NCBI RefSeq assembly: GCF_900187425.1
Contig: NZ_FYDJ01000001.1
Span: forward strand, 62,001 to 126,000
Source: Pseudomonas sp. Irchel s3h14
GTDB taxonomy: Bacteria > Pseudomonadota > Gammaproteobacteria > Pseudomonadales > Pseudomonadaceae
Length of the DNA stretch: 64,000 bases
Reading direction: 5' to 3'
Positions 58,547 through 63,491 of the stretch are shown in pieces (positions within the stretch are counted from its first letter, which is position 1; each line of letters starts with the position of its first letter). The position numbers and the translations under genes are program-made. The notes under the pieces were generated by a model. The model was not told the origin of the DNA, did not search any database, and was given only the letters and a program-made list of their open reading frames with translations.

Positions 58547-59113
58547 GGATATCCCCTAAGTTGAAAGCCGGTGAGGCAAAAACAAGCCGCCATTGTAGCC
58601 GACCAAGCCCCGACTTATCCACACGAAGGTTGTGCACCGGCCATGAAGAATCAGTGATTTATACGAAAAAAAGACGACCAGCGGTCTGTGTATAAGCTCT
58701 GTGGATAACCGGGTCTAAGGTCGTTGTACAAGTGGGGGGGAAACTCGGTGGATAACCACCCTGTGGATAAGTACCCCTTTCACACACAGCTTATCCGACA
58801 GCGCAGCACAGGGTTACCACCGTTTTCCACCGTAGTTGTCATTCTCTGTACATCACGACTTTAAAGGGCTGATGGCAGTTATCCACAGATGATCGTGTCC
58901 CTAGCTTTTATAAGCTTTACAGAAAAGCTTTAAATACTTTCCTTCTTAATTTCTATATCTAGCCAGGGAGCTCGGCAGGAAAAACGTCTGGAGATCTATT
59001 TATAAGGAAACGCTGGTTGGAAATTGACCTAGAGGCTTGCTTTCTCTAGAATCCCCGGTCTCTTAAAACGGGGGCCATTCCGGCCCGTTGTGGACGAACC
59101 AGGTAACACGACA
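58547..59113. other. oriC: Chromosomal replication origin oriC (dnaA-rpmH)
   Basis: The 567-base gap holds four perfect DnaA boxes: TTATCCACA at 58615 and 58879 on the plus strand, and its complement at 58700 and 58762. A TTATACACA box is at 58687 (minus) and a one-mismatch site at 58747. After the last box an AT-rich stretch (about 58906-58960, CTTTTATAAGC to TTAATTTCTATATC) is the likely unwinding element. The region between dnaA and rpmH is the established origin position in Pseudomonas. It also carries the rpmH promoter at its right end and presumably that of dnaA at its left. Confidence 0.93.
59024..59052 (+). promoter_or_regulatory. Sigma-70 promoter of rpmH
   Basis: TTGACC (59024-59029) and TAGAAT (59047-59052) are separated by exactly 17 bases. 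Transcription would start near 59059, about 55 bases before the rpmH ATG. Confidence 0.75.
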
Positions 59114-59248
59114 ATGAAACGTACTTTCCAACCAAGCACTATCAAACGCGCTCGTACCCACGGTTTCCGTGCTCGCATGGCTACCAAGAACGGTCGTGCC
59201 GTTCTGTCGCGTCGTCGCGCCAAAGGTCGTGCGCGTCTGGCAGTTTGA
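59114..59248 (+). CDS. rpmH: 50S ribosomal protein L34
   Basis: A 44-residue, very basic ribosomal protein. The sequence MKRTFQPSTIKRARTHGF and the end RRRAKGRARLAV leave no doubt. It starts the operon rpmH-rnpA-yidD-yidC at the right edge of oriC, driven by the promoter at 59024. Confidence 0.98.
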   Translation: MKRTFQPSTIKRARTHGFRARMATKNGRAVLSRRRAKGRARLAV

Positions 59249-59264
59249 TAAGCCGGCACTGGAG

Positions 59265-59666
59265 GTGAGTCAGGACTTCAGTCGGGAAAAGCGTCTGCTT
59301 ACTCCCCGGCATTTCAAGGCAGTCTTTGACTCCCCTACCGGCAAGGTTCCGGGGAAAAATCTCCTGCTCCTTGCGCGCAACAACGATCTTGATCACCCCC
59401 GTCTCGGGCTGGTTATCGGGAAAAAGAGCGTAAAGCTCTCCGTCGAGCGCAATCGCCTCAAACGTCTGATGCGCGAATCGTTCCGTCTGAACCAGGACTC
59501 ACTGGCCGGCTGGGACATCGTTATCGTCGCGCGCAAAGGTTTGGGTGACGTAGAAAACCCCGAATTGATTCAGCATTTCGGCAAACTCTGGAAGCGTCTG
59601 GCACGCAGCACGCCGGTACCAGCAGTCAAAACCGAAACTGTAGGGGTAGACAGTCCCGATGCGTAA
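59265..59666 (+). CDS. rnpA: Ribonuclease P protein component
   Basis: A 133-residue basic protein that helps the RnpB RNA remove tRNA 5' leaders. The N-terminus SQDFSREKRLLTPRHFKAVF and the RNR motif region GKKSVKLSVERNRLKRLMRE are diagnostic. The start is a GTG at 59265, 16 bases after the rpmH stop; the frame is open upstream but overlaps rpmH. The C-terminus overlaps yidD by eight bases. Confidence 0.95.
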   Translation: MSQDFSREKRLLTPRHFKAVFDSPTGKVPGKNLLLLARNNDLDHPRLGLVIGKKSVKLSVERNRLKRLMRESFRLNQDSLAGWDIVIVARKGLGDVENPELIQHFGKLWKRLARSTPVPAVKTETVGVDSPDA

Positions 59667-59904
59667 ACTGGCACTCGTTCCGATCCAGTTTTATCGCTAT
59701 GCCATTAGTCCTCTGATGGCCAGTCACTGTCGTTTCTACCCCAGTTGTTCCTGCTACGCGTATGAAGCCATAGAAAATCATGGCCTTCTGCGCGGTGGCT
59801 GGCTGGCCTTTCGTCGTTTAGGTCGCTGTCATCCGTGGAATCCCGGTGGTTATGACCCGGTTCCATCTATCCCTACCTCCCGTTCTTCTTCGATGGCCGA
59901 GTAA
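59659..59904 (+). CDS. yidD: Membrane protein insertion efficiency factor YidD
   Basis: An 81-residue protein with a short amphipathic N-terminus and the conserved cysteine motif SHCRFYPSCSCYAYEAI, then GGWLAFRRLGRCHPWNPGG. It assists YidC in inserting membrane proteins. It overlaps rnpA and is followed two bases later by yidC, the standard arrangement. Confidence 0.97.
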   Translation: MRKLALVPIQFYRYAISPLMASHCRFYPSCSCYAYEAIENHGLLRGGWLAFRRLGRCHPWNPGGYDPVPSIPTSRSSSMAE

Positions 59905-59906
59905 TC

Positions 59907-61613: not shown

Positions 61614-61640
61614 CAAAACGCCCCCTAGTGGGGCGTTTTG
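61614..61640 (+). terminator. Rho-independent terminator after yidC
   Basis: CAAAACGCCCC and GGGGCGTTTTG form an 11-bp stem with a CTAGT loop, 22 bases after the yidC stop. TTTT lies inside the descending arm. Confidence 0.85.
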
Positions 61641-61671
61641 CTATCTGTCACTTTTGTCTGGATAACGGTTT

Positions 61672-63042
61672 ATGAGCGTTCCTCGTGAAACCATCGCCGC
61701 CGTCGCCACCGCTCAAGGTCGCGGCGGTGTGGGCATCGTCCGAATTTCCGGACCGCTGGCGAGTGTTGCGGCCAAGGCCTTCAGCGGTCGTGAACTCAAG
61801 CCAAGGTTTGCCCACTACGGTCCATTCCTCAGTGAAAACGATGAGGTGCTGGATCAAGGCATTGCCCTGTATTTTCCGGGCCCGAACTCGTTCACCGGCG
61901 AAGATGTGCTGGAGCTCCAGGGCCATGGCGGTCCGATAGTTCTGGATATGCTGCTCAAGCGTTGCCTGGAACTGGGCTGTCGGTTGGCCCGGCCGGGTGA
62001 ATTCAGCGAGCGCGCGTTCCTTAATGACAAACTCGACCTCGCTCAGGCCGAGGCGATTGCCGACTTGATCGAGGCAAGTTCTGCACAGGCTGCACGAAAT
62101 GCCCTGCGTTCCTTGCAGGGCGCATTCTCCGAGCGTGTGCATAACCTCACCGAGCAATTGATTGGCCTGCGCATCTATGTCGAAGCGGCGATCGACTTCC
62201 CTGAAGAAGAAATCGACTTCCTCGCCGATGGTCATGTACTGAGCATGCTCGACAAAGTACGTGACGAGTTATCCACCGTACTACGGGAAGCCGGGCAGGG
62301 TGCCTTGCTGCGTGACGGGATGACCGTGGTGATCGCCGGCCGGCCAAATGCCGGTAAATCCAGTCTGTTGAATGCACTGGCCGGTCGTGAAGCAGCGATC
62401 GTCACCGAGATCGCCGGCACCACCCGGGACATTCTTCGTGAACATATCCACATCGATGGTATGCCGCTGCACGTGGTCGACACCGCTGGTCTGCGAGATA
62501 CCGACGACCAGGTAGAAAAAATCGGTGTCGAACGGGCGCTGAAAGCAATCGGCGAGGCTGATCGAGTCCTGTTGGTGGTCGATGCAACCGCTCCTGAGGC
62601 ACTTGATCCGTTCGCGTTATGGCCTGAATTTCTGGAAATCCGTCCCGATCCGGCGAAAGTCACGCTGATCCGAAACAAGGCAGACCTCACGGGCGAAGCC
62701 ATTGCCCTGGAAGTCAGCGAGGATGGACACGTCACCATCAGCCTGAGCGCCAAATCTGCAGGTGAAGGGCTGGAATTACTGCGTGACCATCTCAAGGCCT
62801 GCATGGGCTACGAACAGACCTCGGAAAGCAGCTTCAGTGCTCGCAGGCGTCACCTTGAAGCGTTGCGTCACGCCAGTGCTTCCCTTGAGCACGGCCGTGC
62901 ACAGCTGACCCTGGCGGGAGCCGGTGAACTTTTAGCCGAGGATTTGCGACAAGCCCAACACGCTTTGGGTGAAATCACCGGTGCATTCAGCTCCGATGAC
63001 TTGCTGGGACGGATTTTTTCCAGCTTCTGTATCGGTAAATAG
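61672..63042 (+). CDS. mnmE: tRNA modification GTPase MnmE
   Basis: A 456-residue GTPase which, with MnmG, forms the carboxymethylaminomethyl group on U34 of certain tRNAs. The N-terminal tetrahydrofolate-binding domain (about 1-118; TIAAVATAQGRGGVGIVRIS) is followed by a helical domain and an inserted G domain (about 215-375): GRPNAGKSSLLN, DTAGLRDT and NKADL. The C-terminal catalytic CIGK motif (FCIGK) is intact. The start has no strong ribosome site. The partner mnmG follows after an origin-like gap. Confidence 0.97.
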   Translation: MSVPRETIAAVATAQGRGGVGIVRISGPLASVAAKAFSGRELKPRFAHYGPFLSENDEVLDQGIALYFPGPNSFTGEDVLELQGHGGPIVLDMLLKRCLELGCRLARPGEFSERAFLNDKLDLAQAEAIADLIEASSAQAARNALRSLQGAFSERVHNLTEQLIGLRIYVEAAIDFPEEEIDFLADGHVLSMLDKVRDELSTVLREAGQGALLRDGMTVVIAGRPNAGKSSLLNALAGREAAIVTEIAGTTRDILREHIHIDGMPLHVVDTAGLRDTDDQVEKIGVERALKAIGEADRVLLVVDATAPEALDPFALWPEFLEIRPDPAKVTLIRNKADLTGEAIALEVSEDGHVTISLSAKSAGEGLELLRDHLKACMGYEQTSESSFSARRRHLEALRHASASLEHGRAQLTLAGAGELLAEDLRQAQHALGEITGAFSSDDLLGRIFSSFCIGK

Positions 63043-63056
63043 TCCTCCCGTTATCC

Positions 63057-63083
63057 ACAGACAGGCCATTCGTGCCTGTCTGT
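63057..63083 (+). terminator. Probable terminator after mnmE
   Basis: ACAGACAGGC and GCCTGTCTGT form a 10-bp stem with a 7-base loop, followed by a pyrimidine-rich tail (TCCCTCCTTTTCTT) rather than a clean U-run. It begins 14 bases after the mnmE stop and overlaps a DnaA box. Confidence 0.6.
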
Positions 63084-63491
63084 TCCCTCCTTTTCTTGAA
63101 TTCTCTTCCAGTGCTGAGCAGATTCTTTCTGCTTGAGCGGATTTCCCGTGCCCTGGATTTGCTTATTCAGCAGTTTTCTGTGGATTAAGCCCTGTGAATA
63201 ACTGCCTCTAAGGGCAGTTGATAACAGGGCCTCAAAACTGAAGATAACCGCCCCTGTGGATAAGCACCCCTTTCATCCACAGGCTTAAACCGGTTATCCA
63301 AGGGCCTCCTTGGCACATGACCACAGGGTTTTGAATCTCTGTACATATTGAATATAAAGGCCTGTAGAGATCTATCCACAGAAATGTGGCTCAGTAGAAA
63401 TAAACATAAAAACAAAGATTTAATAAATTTCTTTCTTTTTAATTTCTATAACCGCGACTTCTCCACAGCTGGTTAAATTTTGTGCAAAGGG

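Follow-up and report, generated by a model that had tools for sequence, protein, structure and literature searches.

Two origin-like DnaA-box modules of one geometry flank the rpmH-mnmE genes in the Pseudomonadaceae

We analysed the region from dnaA to mnmG in a stretch of 64,000 nucleotides of Pseudomonas sp. Irchel s3h14 (contig NZ_FYDJ01000001.1 of assembly GCF_900187425.1, positions 62,001 to 126,000 of the forward strand), hereafter called the window. The order found is dnaA, module I, rpmH, rnpA, yidD, yidC, mnmE, module II and mnmG, where each module is a cluster of boxes for the initiator DnaA followed by an AT-rich element. Gene names were taken from a first reading of the sequence and from annotated E. 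coli, where the genes from rpmH to mnmE follow in the same order. Box positions are counted from box4, the box adjoining the AT-rich element. The features are the following.

57026..58546, minus strand: dnaA, an open reading frame of 506 aa with a GTG start, used as query for the dnaA searches
58685..58957, no strand assigned: origin module I (dnaA-rpmH), by local alignment limits and family fit
58700..58708, minus strand: module I box1, offset -179, a perfect TTATCCACA
58762..58770, minus strand: module I box2, offset -117, perfect
58780..58788, plus strand: module I box3 position, offset -99, degenerate (3 mismatches)
58879..58887, plus strand: module I box4, perfect
58899..58958, plus strand: module I AT-rich (putative unwinding) element, 73% AT, on the rpmH side
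59114..59248, plus strand: rpmH, by translation
59907..61592, plus strand: yidC, an open reading frame of 561 aa, with a homologue in 119 of 119 family genomes
61672..63042, plus strand: mnmE, an open reading frame of 456 aa
63177..63450, no strand assigned: origin module II (upstream of mnmG), by local alignment and family fit
63193..63201, minus strand: module II box1, offset -179, 1 mismatch
63255..63263, minus strand: module II box2, offset -117, perfect
63273..63281, plus strand: module II box3, offset -99, 1 mismatch
63372..63380, plus strand: module II box4, 1 mismatch
63392..63451, plus strand: module II AT-rich (putative unwinding) element, 85% AT, on the mnmG side
63590..64000, plus strand: mnmG (gidA), an open reading frame running off the window, with homologues in relatives

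Both modules have three features expected of an oriC: a cluster of boxes at or near TTATCCACA, a 60-bp AT-rich element beside a box (its unwinding being putative), and a place among the origin genes dnaA, rpmH and mnmG. Each of them contains one GATC site.

The original prediction held that 58761-58960 and 63254-63453 align without gap at a constant offset of 4493, with about 111 matches in 200. A recount gave exactly 111, to be compared with a mean of 50.8 (standard deviation 6.5, maximum 76) at 600 other offsets within 300 bp, and with 77 matches at the next best place for the 200-bp query across the whole window, both strands included. Aligned locally with gaps allowed, the two complete intergenic regions paired 58685-58957 with 63177-63450 at a score of 148, the top score among 1000 Markov shuffles being 38. 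The register therefore stands as predicted, and the similarity starts about 75 bp further upstream than 58761. The outer boxes, at 58700 and 63193, are likewise 4493 bp apart, which means that the register spans all four box positions. The matching blocks listed in the prediction fared unevenly: boxes, spacings and AT-richness recur in the family consensus described below, and some other blocks are local, such as ACCCCTTTCA of module I, which is intact in the window and altered in the sister strain GM41 and in other relatives.

In the organism's own 6.71-Mb genome, a blastn search with module I (58735-58965) recovered, besides itself, module II in two pieces (E values of 4.8e-6 and 0.03), the third-best non-self match having an E value of 0.72, which is chance level. 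The exact spaced pair TGTGGRTAA-109..111-TATCCACAG was confined to the two modules in this genome (3 matches, one of them being module I read on the opposite strand); it was present in 53 of 119 family genomes, and its backward control in 0 of 119. As a separate observation, 35 of the 149 perfect copies of TTATCCACA in the genome are gathered in 58 kb (G000:C36:87407-145828, positions 25400-63260 in the window), where 1.3 would be expected at the genome mean; the limits of this halo were set after viewing the box list, and the backward control has 25 copies genome-wide.

To see whether the geometry is general, we used the 119 genomes with yidC of a family (f1) that we read, from its named kin, as Pseudomonadaceae. 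Of the 118 genomes besides our own, 60 were fetched, with each of the 19 genera represented, which gave 61 loci including the window (G, L, g and f numbers are our own handles). Module I counts (n = 55) omit L047, the three g13 genomes, and the loci L062 and L071, truncated at contig ends; module II counts omit the three g13 genomes, L067, with its 69-bp gap, and L061 (n = 56). One geometry fitted 54 of 55 modules I and 56 of 56 modules II: two reverse boxes (-179 and -117) and two forward ones (-99 and 0), followed by AT-rich DNA for about 60 bp, with the AT-rich stretch at +20 to +80 in both profiles. The spacing from box2 to box4 was 118-121 bp, and exactly 119 in 40 modules I and 44 modules II. 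No reversed sequence fitted the family profile. The profiles were trained on the very loci that they scored and the fit is partly by construction, so that plain motif matching has to be weighed as well. Without any fitted profile, 119 was still the commonest spacing (25/55 for module I, 29/56 for module II), and among 111 shuffled sequences it occurred in none, a spacing of 118-120 occurring in one. The values of this looser matching were scattered (82, 134 and 146 bp as well as 119 and 120) through competition from strong boxes at other places, which the profile fit resolved. Among close relatives, the nearest named genome being Pseudomonas sp. GM41(2012), 99% identical over the MnmG piece, a spacing of 119 was found in 15/15 modules I and 20/20 modules II, by a script mildly biased towards that value. 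Finally, of the 42 genomes where mnmE and mnmG are adjacent, 39 had their own two modules aligning with a score above those of all 50 shuffles. Two further candidate elements were considered: the weak-box motif TTATCATTC guessed at -37 was not supported, with on average 5.6-5.7 mismatches out of 9, and counted DnaA-trio runs showed no clear phase.

The association of module II with mnmG was also found outside the adjacent arrangement. For 17 genomes the sequence fetched beyond mnmE, some 0.2-1.6 kb, showed no mnmG, owing to inserted DNA or contig breaks, and in 13 of these module II lies directly upstream of mnmG. The contig of G038 ends too early to place it. As side observations, some Pseudomonadaceae (L040 and L041 with L095 and L096, L083 with L100) have mnmE and mnmG split by between about 4.5 kb (G067) and about 20 kb (G052), module II staying with mnmG, and in three g18 genomes (L084-L086 with L114-L116) dnaA lies some 22-24 kb from rpmH, module I still being upstream of rpmH. 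In g13, L073 holds -179/-117/-99/0 exactly in its module I.

The original prediction had proposed that constraint acts on sites and their spacing, and the family consensus with its in-register geometry bears this out; independent, unaligned box positions, which would have spoken against it, were sought in 17 genera and not found. Across these genera the per-position conservation of I and II correlated at 0.71 when in register, at 0.51 with a shift of one base, at 0.28 and 0.34 with three bases, at 0.09 and 0.21 with five, and negatively from eight. The simplest explanation is an old duplication with its geometry kept, as nearly the entire family sample carries both copies. The alternative is convergence, in which DnaA assembly would impose one geometry on unrelated sequences. 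It draws on the strongest matches being those at the DnaA boxes, and on the near-equal outer spacing found beside mnmG in the order of Vibrio, where the sequence (that of E. coli) does not align. However, DNA outside the consensus boxes also matches. The blocks between boxes, predicted to be essentially unrelated, are so only in part: in the spacer from -59 to -5, identity between I and II of different genera is 0.39 in register and 0.23 out of register, and the AT-rich elements are alike in place and length. We regard convergence as unlikely.

Another way to keep two copies alike is gene conversion between the sites, and here the data cut both ways. Modules I and II of the same genome are more alike than those of different genomes, with identities of 0.434 against 0.388 in the spacer and 0.474 against 0.411 in the AT-rich element (0/1000 permutations for both; 1/1000 and 12/1000, respectively, when permuted within genera), and with a small excess in the box1 arm (1/1000). 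Composition does not explain this, as a shifted control gave 0.234 against 0.230 and 0.333 against 0.328 in the same two regions. Alignment scores averaged 72.6 within a genome, 66.4 within a genus and 50.0 between genera (0/2000 within-genus permutations), and counted by genus the excess was positive in 14 of 17 for the mid part (p 0.02) and 13 of 17 for the AT-rich element (p 0.04), six regions being tested. By the same count, however, the spacer and the box1 arm gave only p 0.09 and p 0.12, and in 15 close Pseudomonas genomes same- and cross-genome similarity stayed within 0.010 of each other in all six regions. The box2-3 and box4 parts had no same-genome excess: their likeness is the same whether modules of one genome or of different genera are compared, the mark of constraint. 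Ongoing conversion was therefore rejected as the cause of the likeness, being unseen in the close genomes and weak by genus, and we hold conversion to be a very improbable explanation. We read the same-genome excess as an old change in step at the level of lineages, perhaps with rare conversion.

Which copy is better conserved was then asked between genera. Over 267 positions in 17 genera, module I holds 146 bits of information and module II 169, and the AT-rich element alone 30.7 bits in I and 37.6 in II. Identity between genera is higher among modules II than among modules I in the box1 arm, spacer, box4 and AT-rich element, higher among modules I in the mid part, and level in the box2-3 part. 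In the AT-rich element, 52 of 53 module II copies are nearer to other modules II, and module I copies stand closer to the modules I of other genera than to their modules II in only 9 of 53 cases. Box quality is alike in both (box4 is worse in I in 21 cases, worse in II in 18, and equal in 14). We conclude that between genera module II is the more conserved copy, and not a weaker copy of I. This is so although module I is the accepted oriC. These data also bear on the idea that module II is the fading relict of an older mnmG-side origin displaced by module I. The failure to detect it in the three g13 genomes would fit, as would the commonness of mnmG-side origins in the order of Vibrio. The excess of II-II over I-I identity in four regions weakens the idea, as does the geometry found in all 56 modules II tested, a set from which g13, L067 and L061 were omitted, and we consider a relict quite improbable. 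Being at least as conserved as I across the family, module II is likely a working secondary start rather than a leftover.

Beyond the family, 50 genomes from 39 other families of Pseudomonadales were scored for boxes at -117/-99/0 next to an AT-rich flank, the strict triple. It was found at 3/50 sites I and 7/50 sites II, that is 10/100 overall, 400 control spacings giving a mean of 0.055 and a maximum of 2; the families concerned are f2, f5, f7, f23, f31 and f40. One genome of f7 (G124, locus L132) has the triple at both sites, so that the twin arrangement may be wider than the Pseudomonadaceae. At the level of the class, 40 of 57 mnmG upstream regions were read, and G254 and G255 have four boxes each, with an AT-rich flank in G255 only. 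In the order of a Vibrio genome, which we take to be the Enterobacterales of GTDB, 30 of 60 mnmG upstream loci were read: an outer reverse box lies at -177 to -181 in 20/30 and an inner one at -104 to -107 in 21/30, the remaining 9 or 10 loci not showing the spacing with the box chosen as zero. Two Pseudidiomarina have -180/-107/-89/0, with box2 and box3 shifted together by 10 bp relative to Pseudomonas.

In the E. coli K-12 oriC (NC_000913) the boxes lie at -180/-106/0 and the AT-rich side faces mnmG. Under the E. coli box names R1, R2 and R4, the outer inverted boxes R4 and R1 are 180 bp apart, compared to 179 in both modules; module II shares with the E. coli/Vibrio type this outer frame of about 180 bp, the place beside mnmG, and the AT-rich side facing mnmG. 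The box frame is thus not special to Pseudomonas, given the near-equal outer spacing in E. coli and Vibrio. The inner reverse box differs, R2 being at -106 (-104 to -107 for the type), closer in by about one helical turn than its counterpart at -117 in both modules, as do the GATC sites, 11 in the E. coli oriC. By the patterns used, the dnaA-rpmH gap of E. coli holds one box. Kinship in sequence was considered and rejected: E. coli oriC scored 35 and 37 in alignments with the window modules (family means 29.6 and 28.5), and shuffles of window II against I reach 38. The kinship we claim with E. coli oriC concerns geometry and place, not sequence.

That Pseudomonas has two origin-like regions is already known, so that the existence of the pair is not new; the geometry, its conservation and the enteric parallel make up the contribution of this analysis. 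The second replicating element of P. aeruginosa is presumably the mnmE-mnmG site. That species was reported to have two autonomously replicating elements, one of them essential under typical laboratory conditions (PMC4403523). The chromosomal origins described for Pseudomonas by Yee and Smith (1990) and the P. aeruginosa pair of Jiang et al. (2006), as cited in PMC4403523 and PMC4285127, likewise comprise two origin-like elements per chromosome. They share with our modules the DnaA box TTATCCACA, the characterized oriC adjoining dnaA (PMC3642087). Among the literature matches listed, a scope that leaves aside the two key papers of 1990 and 2006, no title dealt with a common register of the two Pseudomonas modules, and neither family-wide conservation nor a conservation ranking of the second copy was mentioned. 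The bipartite origins of B. subtilis and H. pylori also have two DnaA-box clusters with genes between them, but the unwinding element lies at one cluster only (PMC4285127); here each module has its own AT-rich element, and the two clusters do not share one. The E. coli zone oriK-3850, a DnaA-dependent alternative start bordering dnaA while the main oriC is by mnmG, is the mirror image of the Pseudomonas layout. Unlike our modules, it was seen in rnhA and rnhAB mutants, strongly after ultraviolet irradiation, and it is a zone without a mapped module that also needs oriC (PMC12000880). Finally, in DciA-depleted P. aeruginosa, single-stranded DNA was found 18-46 positions downstream of oriC box R1; if that R1 is our box4, the AT tract of module I coincides with the open region (PMC5109545).

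Our favoured reading, which we consider fairly probable, is that these are two collinear DnaA-type origin modules, both predicted from their sequence to be opened by DnaA, module I being likely the main origin and module II likely a secondary or conditional one. The common register, the box positions (that at -99 of module I being degenerate here), the AT-rich element and the conservation throughout the family are direct observations. The pair would stem from duplication of one ancestral module, with II keeping the enteric oriC position beside mnmG. DnaA, held on fixed faces of the helix, would occupy the outer reverse boxes together with the forward ones and extend from box4 along a single strand of the AT-rich element, which would melt on the rpmH or mnmG side, where the helicase is loaded; an opening like that at the P. 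aeruginosa oriC would then occur at module II too.

Several observations weigh against this reading, besides the circularity of the profile fit. In L066, L067 and L093 modules I and II align no better than shuffles, and in L050, L053 and L091 they exceed them by 1-4 points only. No module II was detected upstream of mnmG in the three g13 genomes, and G027 (L067), where mnmE and mnmG are 69 bp apart, has the standard geometry at neither site. Within the 15 close relatives, II is the more conserved in only 3 of 6 regions (box2-3, spacer and box4, with I ahead in the box1 arm, mid part and AT-rich element). The strict triple is absent from 33 of the 39 other families, and 31 of the 40 class-level mnmG upstream regions are without any box. 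E. coli oriC has no significant sequence alignment with the modules, and its best scores against the family profiles are 0.1 (I) and -64 (II), family members scoring above 15. GC skew in the window is weak, and cannot separate sites just 4.5 kb apart. Firing of module II in living cells is a prediction, and the essentiality of just one P. aeruginosa origin speaks against II as a regular chromosomal origin (PMC4403523).

This last point equally favours the chief rival to a secondary origin, namely that module II is mainly a DnaA control site, for titration or for DnaA-ATP handling like datA or DARS, rarely or never initiating and keeping the origin geometry because DnaA must assemble in the same way. 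The conserved boxes of module II agree with it, and the dense halo of DnaA boxes around the site fits titration. Yet titration would need no 60-bp AT-rich element in register, and between genera this element is more conserved in II than in I. We judge such a control function somewhat unlikely, and retain the secondary origin as the favoured interpretation.

A bolder form of it, which we advance tentatively and hold as possible though doubtful, is a natural two-origin chromosome: module II would be the older mnmG-side origin, of common stock with the enteric oriC and still firing conditionally, and module I a copy that took over by dnaA. If true, the place of oriC, by mnmG in E. coli and by dnaA in Pseudomonas, would be explained by a switch of origin between the two sites in which the scaffold was preserved nearly base for base, and the pair offers a testable route for this move in the gammaproteobacteria. 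With its freely varying filler, the module pair also separates the essentials of an origin, that is four box positions, their helical spacing and a 60-bp AT-rich tract. And if module II is as dispensable in the laboratory as reported (PMC4403523), its retention from genus to genus would imply a use that laboratory conditions conceal.

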